Assembly: GCA_963971535.1 (NCBI GenBank)
Contig: OZ020591.1
Span: 18,338,823 to 18,402,822, forward strand
Direction of reading: 5' to 3'
Origin: Notolepis coatsorum
Lineage: Eukaryota > Chordata > Actinopteri > Aulopiformes > Paralepididae
Length of the DNA stretch: 64,000 nt
Under the pieces are notes generated by a model. It was not told the DNA's origin, did no database searches, and worked only from the letters and a program-made list of their open reading frames with translations. Within the stretch, counting starts at the first letter, position 1. The number at the start of each line of letters is the position of its first letter. The translations under genes and the position numbers were made by a program. Below are positions 3,293-48,975 of this stretch, piece after piece.

Positions 3293-6200
3293 CTAGAACA
3301 AAACAAATGTACACATGAATATGTCGTCACTCCTTTTCGAGCGTTTAGAAATCCTGGAGAGCTGTGTAGGCAGTAGGGTTAGGGTCTACAGTGGGGTTAG
3401 TTAGGGTCTACAGTAGGGTTAGTTAGGGTCTACAGTGGGGTTAGTTAGGGTCTACAGTGGGGTTAGTTAGGTTCTACAGTGGGGTTAGTTAGGGTCTACA
3501 GTGGGGTTAGTTAGGGTCTACAGTGGGGTTAGTTAGGGTCTACAGTGGGGTTAGTTAGGGTCTACAGTGGGACGTGTTTCTCTTGGTCTTTCTGAAAACA
3601 CCCCCACCACCATTTTGTTTGTAGATGGTATGAATTTCTGGAGGTATTGTGACGTTTAATCTTAGGTCCACCGCTGTTCACTAATCACTATGTTCAATCA
3701 ATATGTCTGGCTCATTTATACAGAGTGTCTTCATCATCCTCTAATATATCTGGCTAATTTATACTGAGAGTATTTATCCTCTAATGTCTGGCTCATTTAT
3801 ACTGAGTGACTCATGGTACCAAAGCACCTCAAAGGCGCTAAAAACAAAATTACAAACATCTCAAAACAAACTGGTCAGACTACTGCTTGACCTTACTCCT
3901 AGAACCCACCTCACCCCTGCCCACTTTGACAACCTAGGATGGCTTAGAGTAGACGACAGAGTACAGCAACTTGCAATGGGCCTGGTCTACAAGATACACT
4001 ACACGACCAAGGTACCCATGTACATGTCAAAATACTTCCCAAAGGTCAGTGAATACCACGATCACAACACCAGAGGGAGCTCCACAAATCATGTTAAACC
4101 CAGATTCGGCTCAAATAAGGGACTAAACACGTTTCGCAATTATGCCACATCAATGTGGAACGCCCTACCCAAAGCTGTAAAGGAATGTGGATCACTACCC
4201 ACTTTCAAAACCTCTCTCAAGGGACACCTACGGGAGACTGCAATTCAACACTGGCCCCTGTAAATATCCTAACCCAACCCCCTCCAATGTACAGTAATTT
4301 ACCTAGTATGGTTGTCAATAGTCCAATGTACAATTTTGTTTGTTTGTACAGTGTCTCCCCCCCCCCCTCCTCAATGTACAGTTTTGCTTGTTTATACAGT
4401 GTGCCCCCCCCCCCCCCCAACGTAAATTACCCAGTATGGTTGTCAATATCCCAACGTACCCAACCCCCCCCACCCAACCTCCTCCAATGTACAGTTTCTA
4501 CGTCAAATGTATATACTCCCTTTTCTTGACTCCTTCTGTATCACAAACAGTACTGTATTTGCAAATCTGGTATGTCATAAATGTATAGATGTAGCAGTAC
4601 TGACTATCTGTATGTCATGTATGTCATATATGTCCTGATGAATTGAAAATGGGGGACCCTGATGTAAACAAGACGAAAGTCTTTCTCTGGTCTGCATCCC
4701 CTTAACAATTGTGTGTATTGAGCTGTACTGTATTGTACCCATTCTGCAATCTGTTAATAAAGTTTTCAATCAATCAATCAATCAAACTTCATCATCCTCT
4801 AATATATCTGGCTCATTTATACTGAGTGACTTCATCCTCTAATATATGTCTGGCTCATTTATACTGAGAGCTTATATTTCCTCATATACATTTGTATGGC
4901 CATTTACCATTTACTTAAGAGTATTATTATAGAAATGGCAAGTTGCTCAGGAGTTCCTCTCAGATCCCCCGGGTGTCTCAGAGAACCTCTAGAAGCACAG
5001 TATCCTCTCAGCTAGATGTGACCGATGGGCCAATCAGAGTAACCCATTGTGTATTATGTCATATTTCAAAAAGCATTTTAAATTCTCACCTTTGAGCCGG
5101 CCAGCATGGTGCTGAGCATTTTCGTGCCGCTTCCAATACCAACAACTGAAAGAAACAGAGAGAAAAATACTCTATCATTATTATTATTGCGCGTCGTTGG
5201 AATTCGGTTTATTTTCTAACTGGATTCAGGTCTCAAGGTACCGAAATGTGACACAGATTGATCGAACATGAATAGATCAAAGTCAGAGATCAGCACTCAG
5301 GTAGTCAGAGCTCAGGTAGACAGAGCTCAGGTAGTCAGCGCTCAGGTAGTCAGAGCTCAGGTAGTCAGAGCTCAGGTGGTCAGAGCTCAGGTAGACAGAG
5401 CTCAGGTAGACAGAGCTCAGGTAGTCAGCGCTCAGGTAGACAGAGCTCAGGTAGTCAGAGCTCAGGTAGACAGAGCTCAGGTAGACAGAGCTCAGGTAGA
5501 CAGAGCTCAGGTAGACAGAGCTCAGGTAGACAGAGCTCAGGTGGTCAGAGCTCAGGTGGTCAGAGCTCAGGTAGACAGAGCTCAGGTAGACAGAGCTCAG
5601 GTAGACAGAGCTCAGGTAGACAGAGCTCAGGTAGACAGAGCTCAGGTAGTCAGAGCTCAGGTAGACAGAGCTCAGGTAGACAGAGCTCAGGTAGACAGAG
5701 CTCAGGTAGTCAGAGCTCAGGTGGTCAGAGCTCAGGTAGACAGAGCTCAGGTAGACAGAGCTCAGGTAGTCAGAGCTCAGGTAGACAGAGCTCAGGTAGA
5801 CAGAGCTCAGGTAGACAGAGCTCAGGTAGACAGAGCTCAGGTAGTCAGAGCTCAGGTAGACAGAGCTCAGGTAGACAGAGCTCAGGTAGTCAGAGCTCAG
5901 GTGGTCAGAGCTCAGGTAGTCAGAGCTCAGGTAGACAGAGCTCAGGTAGACAGAGCTCAGGTAGTCAGAGCTCAGGTAGACAGAGCTCAGGTAGACAGAG
6001 CTCAGGTAGTCAGCGCTCAGGTAGTCAGAGCTCAGGTAGACAGAGCTCAGGTAGACAGAGCTCAGGTAGACAGAGCTCAGGTAGTCAGAGCTCAGGTAGA
6101 CAGAGCTCAGGTAGACAGAGCTCAGGTAGACAGAGCTCAGGTAGACAGAGCTCAGGTAGACAGAGCTCAGGTAGTCAGCGCTCAGGTAGTCAGAGCTCAG

Positions 6201-6978
6201 GTAGACAGAGCTCAGGTAGACAGAGCTCAGGTAGTCAGAGCTCAGGTAGACAGAGCTCAGGTAGACAGAGCTCAGGTAGACAGAGCTCAGGTGGTCAGAG
6301 CTCAGGTAGACAGAGCTCAGGTAGACAGAGCTCAGGTAGTCAGAGCTCAGGTAGACAGAGCTCAGGTAGTCAGAGCTCAGGTAGACAGAGCTCAGGTAGT
6401 CAGAGCTCAGGTAGACAGAGCTCAGGTAGACAGAGCTCAGGTAGACAGAGCTCAGGTAGACAGAGCTCAGGTAGTCAGAGCTCAGGTGGTCAGAGCTCAG
6501 GTAGACAGAGCTCAGGTAGACAGAGCTCAGGTACAGTTAAAATCATTGTTACAAAACGAGTGGTACTTACAGAGCGAGCCGTCTATTTCCGCCATTGGTG
6601 TCACCGCGCATGCGCACCAGGCATTTGGCTGCCTGGTGCGCATGCGCGGTGACGCCAATGGCGGAAATGCACGGCTCGCTCTGTAAGTACACGCTTTGTA
6701 ACAATGATTTAAACTGTTTATTAGCAACTCCGAGCTTCCAGACCCCACTGTAAAGCTGTGTTAAACCCATTATTGTACACTGGGTATCTTTGAAATTCAT
6801 ATACGATATATTTTTGACCCACCCCCAGCCCCCCGATCACGCTTGGTAGTTCTTTTTTAAACTGGTCGCGGTACACCTGAGTGTGACTGTGGATTCACTC
6901 GGTGCATCACAGTCACGAAAGGGGCTATGTGTAACTCTGTGCAGATAGGTCTGTTTTTATTTTATGTCACTATACATG

Positions 6979-7050
<72 letters not shown>

Positions 7051-8437
7051 GACAGAACAAGACCTGTAGACGGGTGTCACGTGCCCAACATCAATTACTG
7101 TCCACCCCTCACCCAGTACACCAGCCCCCCCTCACCCAGTACACCAGCCCCCCCCTCACCCAGTACACCAGCCCCCCCCCTCACCCAGTACACCAGCCCC
7201 CCCTCGACCCAGTACACCAGCCCCCCTCACCCAGTACACCAGCCCCCCTCACCCAGTACACCAGCCCCCCCTCACCCAGTACACCAGCCCCCCCCTCACC
7301 CAGTACACCAGCCCCCCCCTCACCCAGTACACCAGCCCCCCCTCACCCAGTACACCAGCCCCCCCTCACCCAGTACACCAGCCCCCCCTCAACCCAGTAC
7401 ACCAGCCCCCCCTCACCCAGTACACCAGACCCCCCTCGACCCAGTACACCAGACCCCCTCACCCAGTACACCAGCCCCCCCCTCGACCCAGTACACCAGC
7501 CCCCCCTCACCCAGTACACCAGCCCCCCCCTCACCCAGTACACCAGCCCCCCCCTCACCCAGTACACCAGCCCCCCCCCTCACCCAGTACACAAGCCCCC
7601 CCTCGACCCAGTACACCAGCCCCCCCCCCTCACCCAGTACACAAGCCCCCCCTCACCCAGTACACCAGCCCCCCCCTCACCCAGTACACCAGCCCCCCCT
7701 CACCCAGTACACCAGCCCCCCCTCGACCCAGTACACCAGCCCCCCCTCACCCAGTACACCAGCCCCCCCTCAACCCAGTACACCAGCCCCCCCTCACCCA
7801 GTACACCAGCCCGCCCTCGACCCAGTACACCAGCCCCCTCACCCAGTACACCAGCCCCCCCTCACCCAGTACACCAGCCCCCCCTCACCCAGTACACCAG
7901 ACCCCCTCACCCAGTACACCAGCCCCCCCCTCACCCAGTACACCAGCCCCCCCCCCTCACCCAGTACACCAGCCCCCCCCCCTCACCCAGTACACAAGCC
8001 CCCCCTCACCCAGTACACAAGCCCCCCCCTCACCCAGTACACCAGCCCCCCCCCCTCACCCAGTACACCGGAGGCGGCGCTGTCCAGAGTTCCCCCGTGG
8101 CCCATTTTCAGCTCCTGCTTCTTTCTCTTCCGGGGGTTCGGGTTCTTCACACCAGCTTCTACAACAACAACAACACGCAGCGTTAATACAACAACAACAA
8201 CAACACCAACCAGCAGAACAACACCAACGGTCCGAGTCGCCGCCACACAGACGACATGAGGACGACGTCACGCAGAGACACGGTGACGGCAGTACCTTTC
8301 AGCAAGGCTTCTTTTAACGCGTTCAACACGTCCGCGGACGTCGGTCCTTGTTTTTTGTAAACCGCGAAGATTCCGTTGAGTGACTTGAGTGTCGACAGAG
8401 ACACGGTTTTAGGAACAAGAGCCGGTCCGCTCATCAT
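3211..8437 (-). CDS. trub1: trub1, tRNA pseudouridine synthase (5' four exons; 3' part off window)
   Basis: TruB-family enzymes convert a uridine of the tRNA T-loop (U55) to pseudouridine. Four exons, all with GT-AG borders and matching phases, are 8296-8437, 8060-8158, 5090-5145 and 3211-3292. Together they give [16 protein letters not shown]-like substrate-domain sequence (here [12 protein letters not shown]), the catalytic motif [15 protein letters not shown] with its aspartate, then [19 protein letters not shown] and [18 protein letters not shown]. This is collinear with vertebrate TRUB1 as I recall it. The start ATG at 8437 has an in-frame stop about 40 bases upstream and no earlier ATG between. 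The exons after 3211 (PUA-like end, rest of the catalytic domain) must lie left of the window. Introns are packed with minisatellites, a LINE and palindromes, but the exons look intact. Confidence 0.93.
3366..3572. repeat. 22-bp minisatellite in trub1 intron 3
   Basis: About nine head-to-tail copies of GGGTCTACAGTGGGGTTAGTTA. It includes TTAGGG-like stretches, but the period is 22 bp and not 6, so it is not a telomere relic. Confidence 0.85.
3573..5089. other. trub1 intron 3 remainder: short tandem repeat split by a LINE
   Basis: At 3690-3811 and 4778-4870 lie degenerate copies of a repeat around CTCTAATATATCTGGCTCAT and TTATACTGAG. The LINE at 3812-4777 sits inside this array, since the same units flank it on both sides. 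The rest of the intron (4871-5089) shows nothing recognisable. Confidence 0.6.
3812..4777 (+). mobile_element. LINE family A, 3' fragment (copy 2) in trub1 intron 3
   Basis: A 5'-truncated copy that starts in the coding part ([20 protein letters not shown]) and runs through the ORF stop at 4261-4263, the CCAATGTACAGT/poly-C 3' UTR and an ATCA-repeat tail ending near 4777. It is antisense to trub1. The coding part is open from 3812 to the stop and differs from copy 1 by few changes, so it is fairly young. Confidence 0.85.
5090..5145 (-). CDS. trub1: trub1 exon 3
   Basis: A 56-bp exon between a CTTTCAG acceptor (5146 onward) and a GTGAG donor (5089-5085). In phase with exon 2 it reads [19 protein letters not shown], the strongly conserved continuation of the TruB fold. 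Confidence 0.93.
5283..6534. repeat. 15-bp minisatellite in trub1 intron 2, about 83 copies
   Basis: The unit is GTAGACAGAGCTCAG with common variants GTAGTCA, GTGGTCA and CAGCGCTCAG. Because the period is a multiple of three, one frame stays open for about 470 codons, but this is an artefact of the repeat. Runs of the same variant order recur (for example around the CAGCGCTCAG variants near 6010 and 6175), pointing to block duplications. Confidence 0.95.
6535..6716. repeat. 182-bp near-perfect palindrome (foldback MITE)
   Basis: Two arms of about 88 bp are separated by the 6-base loop TTTGGC at 6624-6629. The arms differ at only a few positions plus small gaps. Each arm contains GCGCATGCGC, which matches the core of the NRF1 binding site. 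The right arm continues into a repeat that recurs near 29.85-30.16 kb, so the palindrome is part of a dispersed element. Confidence 0.85.
6630..6945 (+). repeat. Dispersed repeat R, copy 1
   Basis: It shares TTTATTAGCAACTCCGAGCT and following sequence, GGGTATCTTTGAAATTCA, and TCACGAAAGGGGCTA with a second copy at about 29890-30160. No coding capacity is seen. It is probably a non-autonomous element with the palindrome as its left end. Confidence 0.6.
6978..7049 (+). repeat. AAT microsatellite
   Basis: About 24 uninterrupted ATA/AAT units. Confidence 0.95.
7095..8070. repeat. Minisatellite built from the trub1 exon 2 splice donor
   Basis: Roughly 40 or more units of about 20-24 bp, each CTCACCCAGTACACC plus a variable AGCCCCCC run on the plus strand. 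Read in the gene's direction each unit is GGTGTACTGG|GTGAGG plus a G run, so it repeats the last ten bases of exon 2 and its 5' splice site. The terminal unit is the real exon border at 8060. G runs beside a donor are known to aid donor use. The proline-rich frames on the plus strand are artefacts. Confidence 0.9.
8060..8158 (-). CDS. trub1: trub1 exon 2 (catalytic motif)
   Basis: The acceptor is TTGTAG at 8164-8159 and the donor is G|GTGAGG at 8060/8059. It encodes [17 protein letters not shown] and then [15 protein letters not shown], the TruB catalytic loop. Its last bases (GGTGTACTGG) and the donor together form the terminal unit of the minisatellite that fills the next kilobase of intron 2. 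Confidence 0.93.
8296..8437 (-). CDS. trub1: trub1 exon 1 (coding part)
   Basis: Encodes [15 protein letters not shown] and onward to EALLK, ending in phase 1 with AAAG followed by the donor GTACTG at 8295-8290. The peptide [20 protein letters not shown] matches the start of the TruB domain. Intron 1 (8159-8295) is only 137 bp and rich in ACA repeats. Confidence 0.92.
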
Positions 8438-12138: not shown

Positions 12139-15130
<2,992 letters not shown>

Positions 15131-23001: not shown

Positions 23002-26000
23002 TGCGAAGAATATACGTAAAGTCAGTCAAGAGCATGAGTCACTAAGAATAGCAGGAATCCTACGATGGGTCTAAGTTGACACCACCTGTCGTATAGTAGC
23101 AACTATATAGGGCAACACTGGTACCGACTGGAGACAATGGGTTCCCTCCGGGGGTGTAAGGCCTGGAGGGTAGAGGAATGTTCGAATACTCAGTCTGATT
23201 CAATGAGGAATAAAGAGACTCCAGGTACAGGAGTCGGTCCTTGTAAATCCCTCGATCAGCAGCAAAGCAATAATTGTAATCCAGATGCTCGACAGCATTG
23301 ATGACAGCTAGCCAGCCCCGTCCACGAGGCCGGCCCGAGTTGTAATCCTCACGAGGTTGAATCCCAAACGATAGTGGAAATCAACTATGCTCTTCTCCGG
23401 GTACCACGTTCCAAATCAATATAATCCAACCAGTAATGGTTCTGCAATCGCCGACGCCGGTTCTCCTGTGCACATGTCCAATGCTACACATGAACGAACT
23501 GTGGTTGCACGATATACAATAAATGAACGACTATTTACTTCACATTAGATTAAGTTGAACTCAACGTTAATTCATTAAACTCTGACACTTTTACCATTCT
23601 ATTCGCACGCGGTTCTCAATGCTCTGTTAGACGCAAGGTTGCTCACTTCACTGTTACCGAACTTGTCACACTGCTTGCTTAGACGAACTTGATGAACTAC
23701 TGCTGGGCGCACCTGCGCCAGCATATATACTTAAGTGATTATCTAGTTCCAAACCTAACCACTTTGGTCTGAATCAATCCACTGCCTCCGGGCATGTTCT
23801 GACATGCCCCAAACTCGCCCATTGCACCTGTCTGGGTGCGAGACTGCCTGGAGCCTAGGGCGCTATCCAATAAGGAGAGCGAATATTACTCTGGTTTGAA
23901 CGTAGGTAAAGGGATATTCCGTATATATATATAAATAATATACAAAGTATATCAAACAATAAAGGTAGATTCTCAGTTTAATCTGGCCCTTCACAACAGC
24001 CGCCTCCTAATTAGTCCGCACCTAATTAGTTAAAGGAGACAGATTAATAGTCCAGTCAACTGCTCAATGTCTGTTGTGAGGAGTAGGGCAATCTACAAAG
24101 TCAGTGGGTCATGATCGTCATCAGGGGAGTCAGGGAGCCTCGGCAACTCTATCAGCCTTGCCACGGGTCGGGTGTAGGTCCGCCCCTGGACAATAACTTC
24201 TGCCGCTCTGACCTTTCCGTCGGCACCAGTGATCACTTTGCTTACGCGGCCGGCCGGCCACATAGCTCGGGGTAGTGACTGGTCTATGATCATAACGACT
24301 GTGTCCACTTTTAAGTTGTCCCTGTCCTTGACCCGCTTCTGACGGGCTGGAAGGGATGGTAGGGAGCTTAGGAGGAAGCGGGCCTGAGACTGGTTGATCT
24401 GTGCTTGGCTGTGTCTCCACATCCTCCGTCTGTTCCTCTTGTTCGGTCTGTACCCCGTCTGAGGAGGGGCCGGTTCCGGCCGCCCCATCAAGAAGTCGTT
24501 TGGGGTGCTGGGTTCGAGGTCAGCTACGTCGCTTGGAGCGCAGCTGAGGGGGGTGGAGTTCGGAACTCTCTCTTCTTGAGCCCACGGTTCTCTCACAGGC
24601 TTCTCGTCTAATGTCAATAGCCTCTCAACGGGCTGTACGAGAGAGTGGCCTGTGTCGCTCACCTTTGCGTACAGGCAGCGTGTAGATGTGGGTTGGCTGG
24701 AAGGTCCGTAGAGGGGGCCCTGGAGCGTCCACCCCAGTCGGGTCTGAACCGCGACTGGGCATCCTTTAGGTCCGATGTGGGCCGCCTCGATTGGGACAAG
24801 GAGGTCCGCGTGGTCGGAGCCTATGAGCAGGGTCGGTGTGGCGCCGTCGATGAGCGGTATAGGTAGTCTGCGTAGGTGCGCGTACTTCGCCATCAGCTGT
24901 GGGATGGGGTAGTTGTAGCTTGACAGACCTATGTCATGGCCTGTAAATGCTTTAGTGATGCTGTACCGCTTCTCGGGCTGCCCGACCGCTGCTATTTTGA
25001 ATGAGACGTTCTTGCCCTTTATGGTTTTCAGGTCTCGCTGAATAGTACGGATTGTCATTGTTTCTTTGTTACCCCGCAGGCCCAACTGGGCTGCGGCGGA
25101 AGCGAGGAGGAGAGTCTTTTCAGACCCATCATCTAGGACGGCGTAAGTGTCCATGACCTTGTCCTCGTAGCTTAAGATCACTCGGACCACCTTCAAGAGC
25201 ACTCGGGAGCTCCCGCTCTTCGCAGGGTCTATGTACATGACGTTCACTCTCGAGCTGCTTGGGGGTACGGGTTTCTTCTTGTTGCTGTCGTGTAGGACCT
25301 CCAAGTGGGCGCCGTCGCACTTGCTGCATCTTTTCTTTAAGCGGCACTCAGCTGCCATATGGCTGCGCGCGCAGCGGAAGCAGCGGCGGTTGGCTTTGAT
25401 CCACTGACTCACCTCGTCAGCGGTCAGCTTCTTGAAGGTGTCACATTGAGACAGCCAATGTTCCTTTTCACAGTACTGGCATACAATCTTCCACTTCCCC
25501 TTGGTCTGGGGGGTGCTGTGGTTCTTGTGCTGCGGCACTGACTCGGCCTGGTGCATAACGGTCACTGACCGGTGGTTATCGTTGGACCTCCGAGGTCCAT
25601 CTCTTGGGCTAGATCCACTCCACACGAATGTGTCCAGTCGTAGGCTGCTAACTTCCCTTGCGAGGAAAGCGGCCAGGTCTAGGAGGGATGGCTCTGGGCC
25701 GTTGGGATCACGGTGGTCTCTCTGCCGCCGAAAACGCTCTTGGCGGGCTGGAGGGAGCTTCTCCAGTATTCGCTCCACATTAGAATTTGCATACAGTTCA
25801 TATCTCCCCTTCTCCTTTTGGGACCCCAGCATCCCTACTAGGGATTGTACCTTGATAGAGAGGTCATCCAGTGCTCTATTGTCTTTGGCTGGGGGGAGGC
25901 GGTCGATATCCCGTATTTCTTGGATCACGTAATCCCATATGCGTCCATAACGCTGGTCGAGGGCCACCAGAGCCGCGGCGTATGGGGTGCTTGAGTTGGA

Positions 26001-26640
26001 ATATGCCAGCGCTATGTTATGCGCTCTGGGCACCTTGAGATGCTTGAGGAGGATGGCATATTTGTACGACTCGTCGGGGACATCGGACATCATAGTCTCC
26101 AAACACATGCGTAATTCCGTGTACTGTGCTCTGTCCTCGCGCGTAAAGTCTGGGAACGTCGGTGTGCCAAGGTACGATGCCATGGATGGCTGGTACATTG
26201 GTGAGCGTAGGGGAAGAGGCCTCCTGGGCGAGTCTCCCCGTACGTGTGGTCGTGGGTTAGTACTTGGTGGGTACCAGAGGCCGGGTCCCCAGGTGCTGTT
26301 CCTCGGTGCTGACTGTACGTCAAACTCACCCGTGAGTTGGGTCGGGGGTTTGTAGTGCAGTGACTCGGGGCTGAAGTCGGGGCTGTACTGGGCCTCCTGG
26401 TCCAAAGTACGTTCTTGCTGGTGGGCTTGATATTCCTCCTCTTCCTCTTCCTCTTCTAGGTCCTGGAGTCTTCTAGTCAGTCTCTCGGCGACGTAGGCCG
26501 GTTCTTCCCGTTGGCTGGGTCTCGTATGGACCGGTCGGGGAGGGGGCTCGGAGACGTAGACAGGTTCCTCCTGTTGGCCAGGTCCCGGGTCGCTTTGTCG
26601 GGTAGGGGAAGGTGCCCTAGACCCTTGTCGTGATGATCTC
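23002..26640 (-). mobile_element. BEL/Pao-type LTR retrotransposon, incomplete copy
   Basis: Minus-strand fossil. Parts seen are gag, a double zinc-knuckle region, an aspartic protease, a carboxy-terminal module of the integrase region, a purine-rich tract (AGGAGGCGGC near 24001-24012) and a 3' LTR starting TGTGAAGGGCC at 23995 and reaching left to about 23002. Reverse transcriptase, RNase H, integrase core and a second LTR are not seen. It is broken and non-autonomous, and lies inside hAT 2. The coding part is open over 770 codons, so it is probably not very old. Confidence 0.8.
24093..26405 (-). CDS. BEL/Pao gag-protease frame with DUF5641-like end
   Basis: The frame is 770 codons. Residues about 80-270 are gag (YTELRMCLETMMSDVPDESY, ALDQRYGRIWDYVIQEIRDI). 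Residues about 310-370 hold CQYCEKEHWLSQC and CFRCARSHMAAECRLKKRC knuckles. Around 415-440 is the protease start AVLDDGSEKTLL. The last 100 residues (VDTVVMIIDQSLPRAMWPAG, RVSKVITGADGKVR, RPVARLIELP) match the module that normally ends BEL/Pao pol. It may be a non-autonomous derivative. Confidence 0.82.
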   Translation of the reverse strand: MDQEAQYSPDFSPESLHYKPPTQLTGEFDVQSAPRNSTWGPGLWYPPSTNPRPHVRGDSPRRPLPLRSPMYQPSMASYLGTPTFPDFTREDRAQYTELRMCLETMMSDVPDESYKYAILLKHLKVPRAHNIALAYSNSSTPYAAALVALDQRYGRIWDYVIQEIRDIDRLPPAKDNRALDDLSIKVQSLVGMLGSQKEKGRYELYANSNVERILEKLPPARQERFRRQRDHRDPNGPEPSLLDLAAFLAREVSSLRLDTFVWSGSSPRDGPRRSNDNHRSVTVMHQAESVPQHKNHSTPQTKGKWKIVCQYCEKEHWLSQCDTFKKLTADEVSQWIKANRRCFRCARSHMAAECRLKKRCSKCDGAHLEVLHDSNKKKPVPPSSSRVNVMYIDPAKSGSSRVLLKVVRVILSYEDKVMDTYAVLDDGSEKTLLLASAAAQLGLRGNKETMTIRTIQRDLKTIKGKNVSFKIAAVGQPEKRYSITKAFTGHDIGLSSYNYPIPQLMAKYAHLRRLPIPLIDGATPTLLIGSDHADLLVPIEAAHIGPKGCPVAVQTRLGWTLQGPLYGPSSQPTSTRCLYAKVSDTGHSLVQPVERLLTLDEKPVREPWAQEERVPNSTPLSCAPSDVADLEPSTPNDFLMGRPEPAPPQTGYRPNKRNRRRMWRHSQAQINQSQARFLLSSLPSLPARQKRVKDRDNLKVDTVVMIIDQSLPRAMWPAGRVSKVITGADGKVRAAEVIVQGRTYTRPVARLIELPRLPDSPDDDHDPLTL

Positions 26641-26647
26641 TCTTCAC

Positions 26648-26793
26648 AACTTCATACTGTAAGAAATTACTGTGATATTACAATAAATTACTGGCAATAT
26701 TTTGCATGACTTTTACAGTATACTGTAAAAGTCATGCAAAATATTGCCAGTAATTTATTGTAATATCACAGTAATTTCTTACAGTATGAAGTT
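26648..26793. repeat. 146-bp perfect palindrome (MITE)
   Basis: Two 73-bp arms meet at 26720/26721 with no loop and no mismatch that I can find. The unit (ACTGTAAAAGTCATGCAAAA and TATTGCCAGTAATTTATTGT) occurs a third time at about 26880-26930, ending TTTTTACAGTGTAG near 26957, which resembles a MITE terminus. Confidence 0.9.
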
Positions 26794-30165: not shown

Positions 30166-30438
30166 CATTGCTGCTCATTACCCCCTGCAGCAATCAACTC
30201 CCATCACAGCAGCTCAGGGTTGGCGGCCATCTTGTCATAAATCATACCCCTTAGAATGTATTAGGAAAAATTAACCCTTCCCACATTGTATATATAAATA
30301 ATATATGCAATATAAAACAAACATAAATGTAGACATTGTCTTAACACTGCATATGTTGGAGGCACAAGGCCAAAGCAAAGGCAACCTGATGGAGCCAAAT
30401 ACCTCCAGAAGCCCTCAGCACTCGCACGGCCCCAGACT

Positions 30439-31377
30439 ATGATCTCAAATGCTACAGAGTACCCAGCGCTCACACAGAGACAGAGCACGGTCCCAAAGGC
30501 TACAGGGCCTCCATTGTCTTTGTATAGAGACATACAATATGTTTCCAGGAACAACAGCAGTGAACAGAACAACATGATGTCTATTATGCAAAAACAAAAC
30601 GACATCACTTCCATGTTGGTGCATCAGCAATGCATTGCTTCACTGCCTAAAAGAGACATCCAACCATTTGAAGGTGACCCTCTGCAGTACCATGGCTTTA
30701 TGCAGTCCTTTGAACAGACCATAGAAAGGAGGACTGACAATGTTGTTGATTGCCTGCACTATTTGGAGCAATATACCAGGGGGCAGCCTAAACAACTAGT
30801 CAGAAGTTGTCAACACATGACTGATGGCACTGGATATGCTACGGCGAAGGCTTTACTCCAGGAACACTTTGGAAATGAGCACGTCATAGCATCCGCTTAC
30901 ATGGACAAAATCTTTGCATGGCCAGCTATTAAGTCAGAGGATGGGAAAGCCTTACAAGCATACAGCCTATTTTTACGCGGATGCTGCAATGCCATGAAAA
31001 ACGTGTATAACCTATGTGACTTGAACACATCTGCAAACATGCTTGCAGTTGCTGTCATCAAGAAGTTGCCCTACAAGCTGAGGGACAAGTGGCGAACAGA
31101 AGCATGTAACATCCAGGAAAGACATCGCAAACGTGTTATGTTTACTGATATTGTGACTTTTGTTGAGCGTGAAGTGAAAATCGCTACAGACCCTGTATTC
31201 GGAGACATACAAGATGCTCCAATGATGGGGGATTTCAGGGAAAGTGGCAAAGCTAGACCTGTGCCTCGACTTCAGGCTAGAGGGAGTAGTTTTGCCACAA
31301 CGTTCCCCACAATTGAAAGAGATGCTCATTGGGAAAACAGAATTAAGGAAGGATATGAGGAGGCTTGCCTTTTCTGA
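30439..31377 (+). CDS. BEL/Pao gag
   Basis: The 313-codon frame contains SLPKRDIQPFEGDPLQYHGF, RTDNVVDCLHYLEQYTRGQP, LVRSCQHM, ALLQEHFGNEHVIASAYMDK and KLPYKLRDKWR, all typical of BEL/Pao gag of vertebrates. A zinc-knuckle stretch (CFGCLCTGHISRECR) follows at about 31470-31515. Confidence 0.85.
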   Translation: MISNATEYPALTQRQSTVPKATGPPLSLYRDIQYVSRNNSSEQNNMMSIMQKQNDITSMLVHQQCIASLPKRDIQPFEGDPLQYHGFMQSFEQTIERRTDNVVDCLHYLEQYTRGQPKQLVRSCQHMTDGTGYATAKALLQEHFGNEHVIASAYMDKIFAWPAIKSEDGKALQAYSLFLRGCCNAMKNVYNLCDLNTSANMLAVAVIKKLPYKLRDKWRTEACNIQERHRKRVMFTDIVTFVEREVKIATDPVFGDIQDAPMMGDFRESGKARPVPRLQARGSSFATTFPTIERDAHWENRIKEGYEEACLF

Positions 31378-33962: not shown

Positions 33963-34196
33963 GATTTATTGATTGATTGAAAAGTTTATTAACAGATTGC
34001 AGAATGGGTACAGTACAGCTCAATACATACAATTGTTAAGAGGATGCAGACCTGAGAAAGACTTTCGTCTTGTTTCCATCAGGGTCCTCCATTTTCAATT
34101 CATCATATGACACACACGACATACAGATAGACAGTACTGCTACATCTATACATTTATGACATACCAGATTTTCAAATACAGTACTGTTTGATGTAC
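33963..34196 (-). mobile_element. LINE family A tail (minus) inside hAT 4
   Basis: ATTG repeat, then GAAAAGTTTATTAACAGATT and the conserved 3' UTR to CAGTACTGTTTG. Only about 230 bp of the 3' end. Confidence 0.85.
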
Positions 34197-34665: not shown

Positions 34666-35156
34666 CATGACGTGTAAAGTGTGTCTTTTTAAGTGGAGTT
34701 TAACTCGCAGTACCGCTACTCACCAGTCACTTCACAACGCTTGAAGTCCATCGTGACTGACAGTGCCTCGAGCTACCATCTGTTATATATATGTTGGGAT
34801 TATTAGGATACACATTTATTTGTCTTTCCCAGTACTCCACGGGATTCTCCAACGCAAAGAAACTCGTAATGAATTTCTATGTCGACACTTGTGTTTCGCA
34901 CCAACCCCGAAGCCATTTCCTGAATCAGTGACTCGGAACGAGGCTTCGGACGTCATCAGTACGTCACCTGATACGCGCCTCGATACAGGCTCCACATAAA
35001 AAAAACTGAATGACCCGACACAAGCTCCGAAGCCTCGCTTCAAACGTCACATCACTAGTGCTAACTAAATGTTTGCTAAGTGAGTTATTATTGCAGAAGG
35101 ACTTACTGTGTTTTGTAGGTTAAGTTAATTTGTTTAACAATATTGCAAAAGACATG

Positions 35157-35646
35157 TATAGTGGCCGACTGTCATTCCTCTGTGTGCTGATAGTCGTCCA
35201 CGATGCACCCGCTTTTGCCTTTTTTACACTGTACCAAAGTTGTTGATGTTAAATGAGTTGAATGTCCACAGTTGCTTCTCTTACGGTGTACAGGGTTTAT
35301 TGTTGTCCAAATGAAAGTGATAATGAATTAAAGGTTTGACAGAACAGTTGTCAGTTGCTCCGTGCTCGTTCCAACAGTATAACAGTGTTTGAAAGTAAGT
35401 CCTCAGCAGGTGCATGAGATTACGTTGATCACCTTGGCCATTTATAGTTATTGGGCTGCAATGGGTGGTGAGCCCTCTAGTGGCCAAACAGTCTAAAGGT
35501 TCTAATGTATACATATAATACAATATATGGTTCAGTGCATGGTTCTAATATATATATAATGTAATATATATACACAATAATAATATATTATATATATAAT
35601 AATAATAACAATATATAAATCCACCAAGTCGGTTTCTGCCTCTACA
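35157..35646 (-). repeat. 3' LTR of the rrp15-bearing element
   Basis: 490 bp, minus-strand start TGTAGAGGCAGAAACC. Same length as the 5' LTR after removal of the LINE. Confidence 0.88.
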
Positions 35647-36219
35647 CACCGGCCCCTTAATTGTGTACTAAAACACAATTATAAAACTATATATGCATCA
35701 AAGAGGCAAAGAAGCAGACATAACCTACAGTCAATGCTAATGTCCTCCATAATAATAAACAATATGAAATCACAATTCTACACAAAGAAACTTGACTGGG
35801 GCTGTGGTTTCCGCTTGTTGTCCCTGAGCATGGGAAGAACAAATTAATTAGTAATTCAAATAACAGTCAAGGAAACTCAATGATAATATTCAAAGTGTTT
35901 TTTGTTTTTGTTTTAACAAACAGAGCCATATAGCTCTGATAGGCTTATAGCCAATGTATATTCAAAGTTCAACAGAGCCCTATGGCTCTGATAGGCATAC
36001 AGCCAATGTCCACTGGTTGTGAGACTCCATCGGGGTCGTCAGGACTTTCTGCGGTAAGTCGGTCGGTAGGTTTCAGCCATTCTTCCCTGCAGGTTTCCCT
36101 TACGCCGTCGTCTCTTGTAGTTTCTCCTTTTGGAAACTGGCATATACAAAAGTGTTTGGTCATCACCGGCCCCGGTAACACCATGGGCTTCCATGGGCTT
36201 CACTTGATAAGCTTGTGTC

Positions 36220-36570
36220 TTCACAGCGTTGAACAGCTGCACCACCCCCCTGGTAGCAATGCTCTGTAGATTTCGTTCCACCTCTCTGTCTTTGACCAGG
36301 TCAGGTTTGTCCCTACACATCATCTCCCAGGTCCGCTTCTTGTCAACCTGTTTCTTTCTCTCCAGCTGCTCCGGTTTCTCCTTCCCCTTCAGCTTGTCCA
36401 GCTGTTTGTTCTTCAGAAGCATGGAGGGTGTACTCTCTGGGGTCTTCTTTTCCAGGATCTTAACCATGGCTTCCGCCCATCCAGCATTTTGGTTCCCCTC
36501 CTCTCCTTCCTCTCCTCCGTCTTCATCCTCTGCCTTTGCCCCATCATCATCAGCTTCCTTGTCTTCTCCA
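36220..36570 (-). pseudogene. rrp15: rrp15-like captured host sequence
   Basis: Rrp15 is a nucleolar protein of large-subunit rRNA maturation. The minus-strand frame reads NAGWAEAMVKILEKKTPES, then KRTWEMMCRDKPDLVKDREV and ERNLQSIATRGVVQLFNAV, preceded by a D/E-rich stretch. This is collinear with vertebrate RRP15 (from memory: NMGWADAMAKVLNKKTPES..., WEMMCRVKPDVV..., ERNLQRIATRGVVQLFNAV). No introns interrupt it, so it derives from an mRNA. After FNAV the similarity to RRP15 ends. It lies between the two LTRs. Confidence 0.85.
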
Positions 36571-36779
36571 TCATCTGATGCTAGGTTGCTGCTTCCGCTT
36601 GTTGGGTGTAGAGTAGATCAGTGTGAGACTGAGGGGCTTGGGTATGAGAGGTTGTTGGCATTACATGCCGGCTTTGACCAGCGGGGGCAGCACATCCTGT
36701 CTTATGGCTTGTAGCAGTATGGCTTGGCCACTGGTCCACCTCTTCTTCCTCTTCTTTATCACTGTCCTCCTCCTCGTCT

Positions 36780-37195
36780 TCATCACCGTTCTCCTCTCCT
36801 TCATCACTCTTGTCCTCCTCTCCTCCATCATCATCATCGACGTCATCAACGCCGGTTCCATCACCACTATCATCATCGACGTCGTCGACATCATCAACGC
36901 CGTCAACATCGACGTCGTCGTCCTCCTCACCACCATCATCATCGACGTCATCAACGCCGGTTCCAACGCCACTATCATCATCGACGTCGTCGACATCATC
37001 AACGCCGTCAACATCGTCGTCGTCGTCCTCCTCACCACCATCATCATCGACGTCATCAACGCCGGTTCCAACGCCACTATCATCATCGACGTCATCGACA
37101 TCATCAACGCCGTCAACATCGACGTCCTCCTCATCACCATCATCATCGACGCCGTCAACATCGACGCCGTCAACATCGACGCCGTCAACTGGTTC
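36780..37195 (-). repeat. GAC/GTC-rich acidic coding repeat
   Basis: Minus strand encodes repeated VDDVDDDSGVGTGVDD units (period about 120 bp, three copies, plus shorter VDGVDVDG copies). It lies inside the LTR element between the gag-like part and the rrp15-like part. Long His- or Ile-rich frames on the other strand are shadows of it. Confidence 0.8.
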
Positions 37196-37627
37196 ATTCT
37201 GATGAAGTGTCTGAGGAACAATCCACTCCTTGGAGGGAATATGAGGCGCGATCGAATAGTCACCCTCATCTTCATCCTCGCTGCCCTCTTCTTCATCGCT
37301 GACCTCATCTCCTTCATCACTGTCCTCTTCTTCACTGCTGTCCTCTCCTCTGGACTCTGGACTCTGTATTTTGTGCTCGCACTCCTTGGAGCTGAAATCA
37401 AGACAGTGATTAGTAAAAACATTATCATTGGCCGGTACAATGTTGCGCCTCTCAGCCAAGACTCCCATCGATGATGCCCGCCTGGCCGCTTGCTTGGCTG
37501 CTCGCTCAGCTGCGCGCCGGGCTGCGTGTTCGGCTGAGAGCTTTTCTTCTTCCATTTTCCTATCACTTTGTTGTTTCTTTATCCTGATTTCCAACTCGTG
37601 TCTCAAGTGTTTAAGGTTTACATTGGC

Positions 37628-38117
37628 GGGCGGCTAGGTGGTGTAGTGGTCTAAGGCACTCGCCACCAGTGTGGAGACGCTAGGATTCGCGTGTTCGAAT
37701 CCAGCTCTCCACATTGTTTTTCAGTTTGGCTGGTCGTCCGCAGTAATACACATTGGCCGTATTACGGGGAGGGAAAAACTGAAGGGTGGGGATCGAACGT
37801 TGTGAACAAGCGACTCCTACAAGTCGGTTGGTGCGCCTGCGCAGTAGAATCAGGAAGTGTCGGGGGCAGCGTGAGCCTCCCACGCGTTACTCCTCGACAC
37901 TAAGAGATCGAGCTGCGCAGGTGAAAAGATGCGACTGCTGTTACCTCAAGTACCGGAGGGGACTTGTGCTATGTATGACTTAGTCCTCACTGCAGCCGGC
38001 TTGTGGGAGGCAAGAAACAGCGTTCGTGACAGGGGAGGGTTGAATTGGATGATACGAAATTGGGATGGGAGAAAATATAGAAAATGGGAGAAAAAGTGGA
38101 TCAAAAAAAAAAAAAAA
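37628..38117 (+). mobile_element. tRNA-derived SINE with poly-A tail
   Basis: Head with GGTGGTGTAGTGGTCTAAGG (A box) and GTGTTCGAATCCAGC (B box, 37689-37704), 490-bp body, and a 17-base A tail. A perfect 15-bp duplication AAGGTTTACATTGGC lies at 37613-37627 and 38118-38132. The last part (TTGGGATGGGAGAAAAT) is shared with the SINE at 61745-62244, so both belong to one family. Confidence 0.92.
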
Positions 38118-38132
38118 AAGGTTTACATTGGC

Positions 38133-38603
38133 AAGGACAGTTTCATATTTCCAATTATTTTGTTGTTTCTGAAGCAAGTTTACAGTGGAAATGCGTATAA
38201 ACAAGCATTCATTTTCGTCTTCAGCCTGTCTTAGCCTAGAGCGTATCCATAAGATTTCCTTTTCATCTTCAGCCTCGCTGCCCTCTTCTTCCTCACCACT
38301 TGATAGTGCCTTTAATGTAGCATCTGCAGCGTCAATGACAGTTTTCATCTCATGCTCCTCTTGCAAGATATTTAATGCTGCTTGCCTGTTTTCAAATTCA
38401 TGATTTATTGATGCTTGGTCATGCTTCAAATCCCTTTGTTGTTTTTCAAGGTCATTTATTTTCTTTAAATGGGCAAGACGTGCCATCATGGCAGCTTTTT
38501 CAGCTTGAGTCCTTTTAAGCATAAATGAGGCTGTTGAGCTCACACTACTTCTATGACTGCTTGGCTGGCGAGGCACATACTTTCCCATCTTGGCTTCAGA
38601 CAT
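38133..38603 (-). CDS. Gag-like coiled-coil start of the LTR element
   Basis: Minus-strand frame from ATG at 38603: MSEAKMGKYVPRQPSSHRSS, then a long K/E/Q-rich coiled coil (RLAHLKKINDLEKQQRDLKH) and an acidic stretch. Serine-rich start plus coiled coil resembles the amino end of BEL/Pao gag proteins, but no capsid domain is recognised. A SINE (37628-38117) lies within the same coding region, which continues at about 37612. Confidence 0.5.
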
Positions 38604-39409
38604 TGTTACTGTATTTTTTTTTACAAATATCGTTTGTAGTTTTAAACGTTACAATCACATGGCGACGTGGTGTGACGTCAGAGCCTTCAAAGTGGGTTTA
38701 TGTGCCAACGTTATCCCGTTTCCACACGTCCAGAGTAACATTAATTGCAATGGTTCCACTTATTCTCTGTTGCATATTCCACTGCTGTATCAGAATTAAA
38801 TCAGTCCATTGCACCATTTAGTTTCCACACGTCCAGACTTTATTAATTGCGATGGTTCTACTTAATTCTAATACGGCACATAGTCCGTTCTAATCCATTC
38901 CACAGTATCGCAATTCAATTAGTCTGACGCCGTCTAGTTTTTCCACACGTCGAGTGCGCGACTGACAACATTAATTGCAATGGTTCCAAATATTACGACG
39001 TCCAATACGTTTTATAATCCACAGCATCACAATTAATCAATTTGTCAGTCTGACGTTATTATACTCAACAGCGTTCGCACGGAAGCGCAACAATGTAGCA
39101 AAGTCCAGAGTCACGTTTCATTCATAAATACAGCAGCGTCCAAACAATTCCACTTCACGGCAGGCCATTACAGCTCTTCACAGTCTTTCAAATCCTTTAT
39201 CCAGGTCTTCATCAACAGAGGTGTATTTCATAAATCTTCTTACCTCTGGTTTCCTTTTGTGAGGGAGCTCGTCCAACTTTATACTCACATAGCACGTCCT
39301 TCTTTCACAAGGATATTTTTCCTCTTTTTAACTCTCGTCCTTCTGTCGTGAGGGTATTTTCAAACTTTGTACTCCCACGTCCTTCTTTCAGGAGGAGACT
39401 TTCAAACTT
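38604..39409. other. Leader region of the LTR element
   Basis: Between the 5' LTR and the gag-like start. It holds three imperfect copies (about 38710-39060) of a 110-130 bp unit with TTCCACACGTC and ATTAATTGCAATGGTTCC, and three copies of GAAAGAAGGACGTG-like sequence near 39290-39400. No coding content. Confidence 0.5.
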
Positions 39410-40669
39410 TATAGTGGCCGACTGTCATTCCTCTGTGTGCTGATAGTCGTCCACGATGCACCCGCTTTTGCCTTTTTTACACTGTACCAAAGTTGTTGAT
39501 GTTAAATGAGTTGAATGTCAACAGTTGCTTCTCTTACGGTGTACAGGGTTTATTGTTGTCCAAATGAAAGTGATAATGAATTAAAGGTTTGACAGAACAG
39601 TTGTCAGTTGCTCCGTGCTCGTTCCAACAGATTGATTGATTGATTGAAAAGTTTATTAACAGATTGCAGAATGGGTACAGTACAGTACATCTCAATACAT
39701 ACAATTGTTAAGGGGATGCAGACCAGAGAAAGACTTTCGTCTTGTTTCCACCAGGGTCCCCCATTTTCAATTCATCATAACATATATGACATACATGACA
39801 TACAGATAGACAGTACTGCTACATCTATACATTTATGACATATCAGATTTGCAAATACAGTACTGTTTGTGATACAAAAGTGTCCAGAAAAGGAGTGTAT
39901 ATACATTTGGCGTAGAAACTGTACATTGGAGGAGGTTGGTGGGGTGGGGTTGGGTGGGTTGGGTGAGGGCTGTACATTGGAGGTGGGGGGGGGGGGGGGG
40001 GGGTTGGGTAGGGGACACATACACATTTTACACTGTACATTGGAATGTTGACAAAGCCTTACTTGGTCATTTACTGTACAACTAGGTTAGGACATTTGTA
40101 GGGGCCAGTTTCGAATTGCAGTCTCACGTAGGTGTTTTTTGAGAGTGTTTTTGAAGGTGGGTAGTGATTCACATTCCTTTACAGCTTTAGGCAGGGCGTT
40201 CCACATTGATGTGGCATAATTGCGAAACGTGTTTAGTCCCTTGTTTGAGCCGAATCTGGGTTTTACATGATTTGTGGAGCTCCCTCTGGTGTTGTGATCG
40301 TGGTATTCACTGACCTTTGGGAAGTATTTTGACATGTACATGGGTACCTTGGTCGCGTAGTGTATCTTGTAGACCAGGCCCATTGCAAGTTGCTGTACAG
40401 TATAACAGTGTTTGAAAGTAAGTCCTCAGCAGGTGCATGAGATTACGTTGATCACCTTGGCCATTTATAGTTATTGGGCTGCAATGGGTGGTGAGCCCTC
40501 TAGTGGCCAAACAGTCTAAAGGTTCTAATGTATACATATAATACAATATATGGTTCAGTGCATGGTTCTAATATATATATAATGTAATATATATACACAA
40601 TAATAATATATTATATATATAATAATAATAACAATATATAAATCCACCAAGTCGGTTTCTGCCTCTACA
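39410..40669 (-). repeat. 5' LTR of the rrp15-bearing element, split by a LINE
   Basis: Two parts, 39410-39630 and 40401-40669, together 490 bp, separated by LINE family A (39631-40396) with a short ACAG at both sides. Confidence 0.88.
39631..40396 (-). mobile_element. LINE family A, 3' fragment (copy 5) in an LTR
   Basis: Minus orientation: ATTG tail at 39631, then the G-rich (complement of poly-C) 3' UTR and the open carboxy-terminal coding part ([20 protein letters not shown]). It splits the 5' LTR of the rrp15-bearing element, so it is younger than that element. Confidence 0.9.
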
Positions 40670-40979
40670 AAGACACAAGTAGAAATAAGATGGATCTATG
40701 TTGTTATTGTTTGATCTGTGATTTATTGTATTTCAATGTATGTGTTTCACAGTTCTCACCGTCCGGATTTGAAAGAAATCCCACCAGTACTATAAAGAAC
40801 GTGTTGCTGTCATCAGTGCATAAGAGGGAATTACACTAGGACTGCATAGTCTTCGGTGAGTTTGATGTACCCATATGTCTCGCGATGGTCTGTTGATTGT
40901 CTGCATCTGACGTCATTTACTCCCACATGCACAATGACTGCATGTGCAGACGGATAGCGCTCCACAATAGTTGGAATAT
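40670..40979. other. Nothing recognised
   Basis: Flank of the LTR element up to the L2-like LINE; no repeat or gene seen. Confidence 0.5.
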
Positions 40980-41308: not shown

Positions 41309-41432
41309 CTGATGTAAACTAAACAAACGTCTTTCTCTGGTCTGCATCCCCTTAACAATTGTGTGTATTGAGCCATACTGTATTGTACCCATTCTGCAAT
41401 CTGTTAAATAAAGTTTTCATTCATTCATTCAT
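41309..41432 (+). mobile_element. LINE family A tail (copy 6)
   Basis: About 124 bases of the family 3' end (TCTTTCTCTGGTCTGCATCC) with an ATTC tail, inserted in the L2-like LINE. Confidence 0.85.
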
Positions 41433-41472
41433 CCATGCTTTTATGACCTCTCGCCTTGATTACTGCAATGAA
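41433..41472 (+). mobile_element. L2-like LINE, segment 2
   Basis: Forty bases coding HAFMTSRLDYCNE, the well-known L2 block that should follow segment 1. Confidence 0.75.
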
Positions 41473-47029: not shown

Positions 47030-48975
47030 GTCTCTCGCGAGTCTCTATGACAAACTGTTCAAAAGATACAAAAAGGGGGCGCGGCCTAAGGATTGGGGGA
47101 GTGGTCAACATAGACCAATTAAAGAGGACATCCCTACTGAGTACAATGGCACAACCCGCAAGTCTCTACGACAAACGGTTCAAAAGATACACAAAGGGGG
47201 AGGAGCCAAACTATGGGCATGGTCAACATAGACCGATGAAAAAGGACATCCCTACTGAGTACAATGGCACAACCCGCAAGTCTCTATGACAAACGGTTCA
47301 AAAGATACACAAAGGGGGAGGAGCCAAACTATGGGCGTGGTCAACATAGACCGATGAAAGAGGATATCCCTACTGAGTACAATGGCACAACCCGCAAGTC
47401 TCTACGACAAACGGTTCAAAAGATACACAAAGGGGGAGGAGCCAAACTAGGCGTGGTCAACATAGACCGATGAAAGAGGACATCCCTACTGAGTACAATG
47501 GCACACCCCGTAAGTCTCTACGACAAACGGTTCAAAAGATACACAAAGGGGGAGGATCCAAACTATGGGCGTGGTCAACATAGACCGATGAAAGAGGATA
47601 TCCCTACTGAGTACAATGGCACAACCCGCAAGTCTCTACGACAAACGGTTCAAAAGATACACAAAGGGGGAGGAGCCAAACTATAGGCGTGGTCAACATA
47701 GACAGATGAAAGAGGACATCCCTACTGAGTACAATGGCACAACCCGTAAGTCTCTACGACAAACGGTTCAAAAGATACACAAAGGGGGAGGATCCAAACT
47801 ATGGGCGTGGTCAACATAGACTGATGAAAGAGGATATCCCTACGGAGTACAATGGCGCAACCCGCAAGTCTCTACGACAAACGGTTCAAAAGATACATAA
47901 AGGGGGAGGAGCCAAAATATGGGCGTGGTCAACATAGACCGATGAAAGAGGACATCCCTACTGAGTACAATGGCACAACCCGCAAGTCTCTATGACAAAC
48001 GGTTCAAAAGATACACAAAGGGGGAGGAGCCAAACAATGGGCGTGGTCAACATAGACCGATGAAAGAGGATATCCCTACTGAGTACAATGGCACAACCCG
48101 CAAGTCTACGACAAACGGTTCAAAAGATACACAAAGGGGGAGGAGCCAAACTAGGCGTGGTCAACATAGACCGATGAAAGAGGACATCCCTACTGAGTAC
48201 AATGGCACACCCCGTAAGTCTCTACGACAAACGGTTCAAAAGATACACAAAGGGGGAGGATCCAAACTATGGGCGTGGTCAACATAGACCGATGAAAGAG
48301 GATATCCCTACTGAGTACAATGGCACAACCCGTAAGTCTCTACGACAAACGGTTCAAAAAGGAGCCAAACTATAGGCGTGGTCAACATAGACAGATGAAA
48401 GAGGACATCCCTACTGAGTACAATGGCACAACCCGTAAGTCTCTACGACAAACGGTTCAAAAGATACACAAAGGGGGAGGATCCAAACTATGGGCGTGGT
48501 CAACATAGACTGATGAAAGAGGATATCCCTACTGAGTACAATGGCGCAACCCGCAAGTCTCTACGACAAACGGTTCAAAAGATACATAAAGGGGGAGGAG
48601 CCAAAATATGGGCGTGGTCAACATAGACCGATGAAAGAGGACATCCCTACTGAGTACAATGGCACAACCCGCAAGTCTCTACGACAAACGGTTCAAAAGA
48701 TACATAAATGGGGAGGAGCCAAAATATGGGCGTGGTCAACATAGACCGATGAAAGAGGATATCCCTACTGAGTACAATGGCACAACCCGCAAGTCGCTAC
48801 GACAAACGGTTCAAGAGATACACTAAGGGGGTGTGGCCTAAGGGGGTGTCGTCTAAGGATCGGGGGAGTGGTCAACATCGACCAATGAAAGAGGATATCC
48901 CTGAGTACAATGGGTCAACATAGACCAATGAAAGAGGACATCCCTACTGAGTACAATGACACAACCCGCAAGACA
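47030..48975 (+). repeat. 118-bp satellite with higher-order structure
   Basis: About 16-17 head-to-tail units containing AAAGAGGACATCCCTACTGA, CAAGTCTCTACGACAAACGG and GGGCGTGGTCAACATAGAC. Variants (GCCAAACTAGGCG; GGATCCAAAC; GCCAAAATATGGG; GCGCAACCC) recur in the same order about 704 bp apart (GCCAAACTAGGCG at 47441 and 48145), so six units were duplicated as a block. Short frames beginning MAQPASLYDK are artefacts of the repeat. Confidence 0.92.

Follow-up and report, generated by a model that had tools for sequence, protein, structure and literature searches.

How does a piece of the host gene RRP15 come to lie inside an LTR retrotransposon, and what has become of it there? The question is raised by positions 35157-40669 of the window, the whole stretch of 64,000 nucleotides of Notolepis coatsorum DNA that was analysed. 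Our analysis indicates that a non-autonomous BEL/Pao derivative very probably captured the middle of a spliced host RRP15 mRNA and now occupies 73 places in the genome.

Architecture of the window element

A sequence-only reading of this locus had described two nearly identical 490-bp LTRs around a coiled-coil gag-like start and an rrp15-like stretch, in an element lacking its own enzymes. Repeat comparison demonstrated direct 490-bp LTRs (35157-35646 and 39410-39630 plus 40397-40669) that differ at a single base in 490 aligned positions, flanked by a 6-bp target-site duplication, AAGACA, with its left copy at 35149-35154 and its right copy at 40670-40675; 2 extra bases (TG) lie between the left copy and the LTR. 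The window element thus displays both hallmarks of an LTR retrotransposon, direct LTRs that are almost identical and a short duplication of the target. Judged by the LTR divergence, which the earlier reading had proposed for dating, it is young. While the element itself was borne out, that description needed correction in two respects: the coding strand of the element is minus, and its frame is broken by an insert and a duplication.

Because the coding strand is the minus strand, the right LTR (39410-40669) is the 5' LTR and the left one (35157-35646) the 3' LTR. A 766-bp repeat insert (39631-40396) interrupts the 5' LTR; sequences related to the insert lie at 33963-34190 and, in inverted orientation, near 41309-41433. 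Downstream of this LTR lies a 5' untranslated region (38611-39409, minus strand), parts of which are common to a BEL/Pao relative, and an ATG at 38603 opens the coiled-coil protein. The gag-type coiled-coil start occupies 38307-38603 on the minus strand, as the earlier reading had recognized in outline, and is common to BEL/Pao polyprotein frames. It is followed by an A-tailed insert within the reading frame (37628-38117), read as a SINE and bordered by a 15-bp duplication (37613-37627 and 38118-38132), and then by an acidic repeat region and linker (36581-37633, minus strand) in a 350-aa open frame. Upstream of RRP15 a 5-bp tandem duplication (36608-36617, minus strand) shifts the frame in the window copy and is absent from the copies compared with it. 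The A-tailed insert (37613-38132 including its duplication) and this 5-bp duplication together break the coding frame of the window copy. The captured RRP15 fragment itself (36222-36581, minus strand, 360 nt) consists of parts of three host exons without introns, and the frame ends in an element-owned C-terminal tail (36039-36221, minus strand) with the basic stretch KRRNYKRRRRKGN; a similar tail is found in elements without RRP15. No pol domain was detected in the three window-element frames scanned against Pfam.

Host source and dispersed copies

The RRP15-like frame (36039-36617, minus strand) matched the Pfam Rrp15p family with E=3.8e-20 and residues 58-184 of the human RRP15 chain 8fkp, from a pre-ribosome structure, with E=7e-36. 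The match is far above chance level, and the intron-free collinear stretch previously placed at 36220-36570 was recovered with slightly different borders. To the C-terminal half of human RRP15, used as a query, a single place in the 3.42-Gb genome corresponded, on contig C1771, with two further RRP15 exons upstream of the match. Its splice sites are visible (AAACAG/GT, AG/GTTGACAAG, GCTACCAG/GT and CCCTCAG/GGGGGTGG, the slash marking the splice position). The window element joins the C1771 exons exactly at two exon-exon junctions, and the two borders of the captured piece fall within different exons. Modules aligned across the full 363 nt maintain 78-96% identity to the joined C1771 exons, gaps counted. 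Since the element crosses two exon-exon junctions exactly, its source was spliced RRP15 mRNA, in agreement with the transduction of part of rrp15 that the sequence-only reading had proposed. The host exons sit without introns inside the LTRs and the intron-bearing parent gene lies elsewhere, on a contig of only 268 kb, whose small size we count against our explanation. The place of the window element itself holds no intron-bearing rrp15, the arrangement that a host locus hit by LTRs would have left.

A Pfam search of the genome, with 94 of 94 candidates scored, returned 75 RRP15 matches: the C1771 gene and 73 further places, two rows being one locus. With C1771 set aside, 3 of the remaining 74 rows have a stop within the matched stretch. 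A DNA search, in which 40 of 97 candidates were scored, yielded identities of 93-100%. We read 61 of the 73 places (the window element, 20 loci spanning about 9.8 kb each and 40 short loci), and introns were absent from all 61 RRP15 modules; among the remaining 12, ten align to the DNA query without interruption and two are known from the Pfam match alone. At least 290 nt of the same RRP15 stretch is covered by 57 of the 61 modules, the partial or interrupted modules L042, L049, L055 and L058 being left out of the 57-module counts. With anchored patterns, the 5' capture join proved to be the same in 50 of the 61 copies and the 3' join in 47 of them, the others having missed the anchors. A single capture explains these shared joins best.

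An LTR pair was found in 12 of the 20 fetched long copies. Since the pairs are 97.1-99.6% identical in 11 of these 12 measured copies (92.0% in L015), most insertions are young. Target duplications of 5 bp were seen in the flanks of L013, L016, L017, L020 and L025, and one of 4 bp in L024. The chimera thus moved as a unit after capture, with dispersed copies, the same joins and target duplications in some of them, as the earlier reading had supposed. Some of the 73 places are segmental duplicates. L015 and L017, L021-L023, and L013 and L014 have the same flanks or are close neighbours in satellite arrays, and are probably segmental duplications rather than separate insertions.

Distances (K2P) to the window copy differ between segments of the element. 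For L015-L019 and L021-L024 they are 0.020-0.034 in the RRP15 module and 0.045-0.120 in the LTR, and for L025-L028 they are 0.034-0.043 and 0.126-0.150. In the 3' region the order is reversed, with 0.128-0.146 in the former group against 0.078-0.094 in the latter (without L028); a short L019 piece of this region gave 0.053. Because the segment distances conflict, the segments have different histories and the elements recombine. Assuming equal rates, the LTR backbones are older than the RRP15 module that they contain.

Directly after the 5' LTR, AAGTTTGAA was observed in all five copies inspected (L024, L016, L025, L012 and L020). Because no TGG-type primer site directly follows the 5' LTR in those five copies, priming may be unusual, and we count this absence against our explanation.

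Reading frame and selection

One frame runs from the MSEAKM coiled-coil start through the whole module in 9 of 21 long copies, the window copy not being among them. Among the 57 modules, an off-frame indel was flagged in nine (L057 and L060 doubtful) and a stop in three. A codon model was fitted to 40 modules, those left of the 57 once 7 duplicates and 10 rows with breaks or heavy gaps had been removed. Within the element tree it gave an omega of 1.005 and a kappa of 2.09, and holding these at 1 and 2, respectively, cost about 0.06 log units (lnL -1264.41 versus -1264.34 when free). Parsimony counts of nonsynonymous to synonymous changes (N:S) over 52 distinct rows, host gene included, were 24:7 on inner branches and 75:30 on terminal branches, against a neutral expectation of about 2.5:1 at kappa 4. 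The omega near 1 and these counts therefore indicate that the RRP15 protein sequence drifts in the element. Purifying selection on the captured RRP15 was considered and rejected: every one of the 57 modules has a pairwise dN/dS below 1 relative to the host gene, but the signal vanishes within the element tree, and such values are no proof of selection because the host branch can produce them.

Deletions follow another pattern. All six deletions common to several copies keep the frame in the RRP15 module, while shared gaps in non-coding controls are multiples of three in 2 of 9 cases (3' region) and 11 of 33 (LTR). Among 13 single-copy deletions six are not multiples of three, and three of those six are doubtful (an alignment ending early in L057 and two L060 gaps summing to 48). 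The module counts cover deletions. A 2-nt insertion that breaks the frame is common to L021-L023, which are located within 80 kb of C7 and for that reason entered the analysis as a single copy. Some of the module deletions fall in triplet repeats of the acidic part, where mutation alone likely favours in-frame lengths. The RRP15 amino acids seem to be without detectable constraint in the element, whose open frame is apparently kept.

One alternative holds that the RRP15 domain is kept for a function of its protein in the element, such as the binding of pre-60S or nucleolar partners. An open frame in most Pfam matches, the in-frame shared deletions and the basic tail all speak for it, while the omega of the 40 modules and the near-neutral N:S counts on both classes of branches speak against it. 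Furthermore, the human RRP15 nucleolar signal, mapped to residues 228-232 (PMC5355092), lies outside the captured part. On balance we regard a working RRP15 protein as unlikely. Nucleolar targeting by the captured part was likewise disfavoured as a candidate function, the mapped human signal being C-terminal.

Alternatively, the family could have made its capture in a different species and reached this genome by horizontal transfer. The branch from the C1771 gene to the element root, with an N:S of 1:6, is what two constrained orthologues would produce, but it holds only seven changes and the host branch alone can account for them. We therefore consider such a transfer improbable and retain capture of the host's own spliced RRP15 mRNA as the preferred account.

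Capture site, putative helpers and known systems

Elements without RRP15 illustrate what the site may have held before. In L073 the linker and tail are the same, but about 265 nt of a different in-frame sequence separate them. Searched against the genome, a 65-residue part of this insert gives 71 matching rows, of which 23 span its full length or all but one residue. In L074 (only 851 bases) the tail is preceded by yet a third sequence, and the similarity of L074 to the capture family begins at the base where RRP15 ends. We take it from these alignments that RRP15 would have replaced older element sequence rather than been added at an end, and the RRP15-less forms appear to be the older ones. 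The middle segment and the L073 insert gave no Pfam match above the cut-off. A second host-gene capture in either was considered but not supported, the best solved-structure match having E=0.2. Because at least three unrelated in-frame contents (RRP15, the L073 sequence and the L074 sequence) occur between linker and tail, this interval could conceivably be an exchangeable cassette site, with the family repeatedly trading host or element RNA pieces while keeping the gag start and basic tail, a suggestion that we offer tentatively.

Borders inside exons, together with the RRP15-less elements, point to template switching as the capture step. Reverse transcription would have switched from the element RNA to a co-packaged RRP15 mRNA and then back, the RRP15 fragment taking the place of other element sequence between linker and basic tail. 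The resulting single frame would comprise the gag coiled coil, acidic repeats, RRP15 fragment and basic tail. With enzymes from its relatives, the element would then have spread to its 73 places, some via segmental duplication, and recombined with sister elements. A LINE-made processed rrp15 pseudogene later surrounded by a retroelement, or a host locus hit by LTRs, would agree with the absence of introns. However, both ends of the fragment lie within exons, it continues into element sequence with no A-tail and no target duplication directly around the cDNA, most modules share both joins, and 12 of the 20 fetched long copies show an LTR pair, so that we give this explanation almost no credence.

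Since the element has LTRs with no pol found, it would need the enzymes of BEL/Pao relatives. Peptidase_A17 is a mark of BEL/Pao elements. The coiled coil was also found in frames of 1777-2133 aa at C35, C9, C3899, C7 and C182, where Peptidase_A17 lies a few kb downstream of it in equally long frames (150 scored of 21,826 candidates in the Peptidase_A17 search). None of the places of these pol-bearing relatives is among the genome's 75 RRP15 Pfam matches. The LTR of the C35 element is 97% identical to that of the window copy over 210 nt and about 82% overall, and the two elements also have in common the coiled coil, sections of the 5' region and a stretch of some 45 bases that precedes the 3' LTR. 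With no pol domain in its three scanned frames, the window element is not itself placed in BEL/Pao; by its shared LTR, 5' region and gag start it is classed as a BEL/Pao derivative. The relatives are the likely helpers that would supply reverse transcriptase and integrase in trans, and the dependence on a relative that the earlier reading had predicted accords with these observations. The BEL/Pao load of the genome is very large, judging from the 21,826 first-look candidates, and many of the 150 scored are frames of about 2,000 aa. In the window, a BEL/Pao-like frame at 24093-26651 (minus strand) extends from a gag-like part, identified by reading, to a DUF5641 end with no reverse transcriptase match, and another at 30316-31377 (plus strand) holds DUF1759.

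Several known systems resemble this family. The host pieces of maize Bs1 are spliced, and Bs1 needs a helper. In replication-defective gag-onc retroviruses a gag start is fused to a piece of host cDNA, pol is lost and a helper provides the enzymes. TR-GAG elements are non-autonomous, with LTRs and a gag-like frame but no pol. By analogy the window element would work like Bs1 or a gag-onc retrovirus, and the process is already known. The family shares with gag-onc retroviruses the fusion, the loss of pol and, presumably, the helper, whereas it consists of germline retrotransposon copies with no known host effect. With TR-GAG elements, as commonly defined, it shares LTRs, a gag-like frame and the absence of pol, but it keeps only the gag coiled-coil start and has a host domain fused to it. 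Bs1 is described (PMC13317346 and PMC5408686) as an LTR element with host-gene fragments in a chimeric reading frame, and the likeness lies in that chimeric frame; Bs1, however, belongs to a plant and holds fragments from three host genes, whereas our family is an animal BEL/Pao derivative with one host gene at 73 places. Metazoan LTR-mediated retrocopies, attributed to template switching (Tan et al. 2016, as summarized in PMC5408686 and PMC8232201), also have an LTR-flanked host mRNA piece, but unlike those the chimera in the window became a multi-copy element with subfamilies.

Judged by title and abstract beginning, none of the openly licensed papers listed for RRP15 together with retrotransposons or transposable elements reports a captured RRP15, and nothing was found in phage records. 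The family serves as a clear animal case in which one genome holds the parent gene, the exactly joined exons, the shared borders, RRP15-less elements and pol-bearing relatives, so that the steps of gene capture by an LTR element can be ordered. It also raises the question of whether a captured host domain can spread widely without selection on its protein sequence.

Elsewhere in the window, a tubulin C-terminal domain frame with an odd start (12139-13002, minus strand, E=3.4e-44) is a last exon or a pseudogene, and long minisatellite arrays with periods of 15, 23 and 118 occupy 5296-6533, 7105-8069 and 47036-48831.
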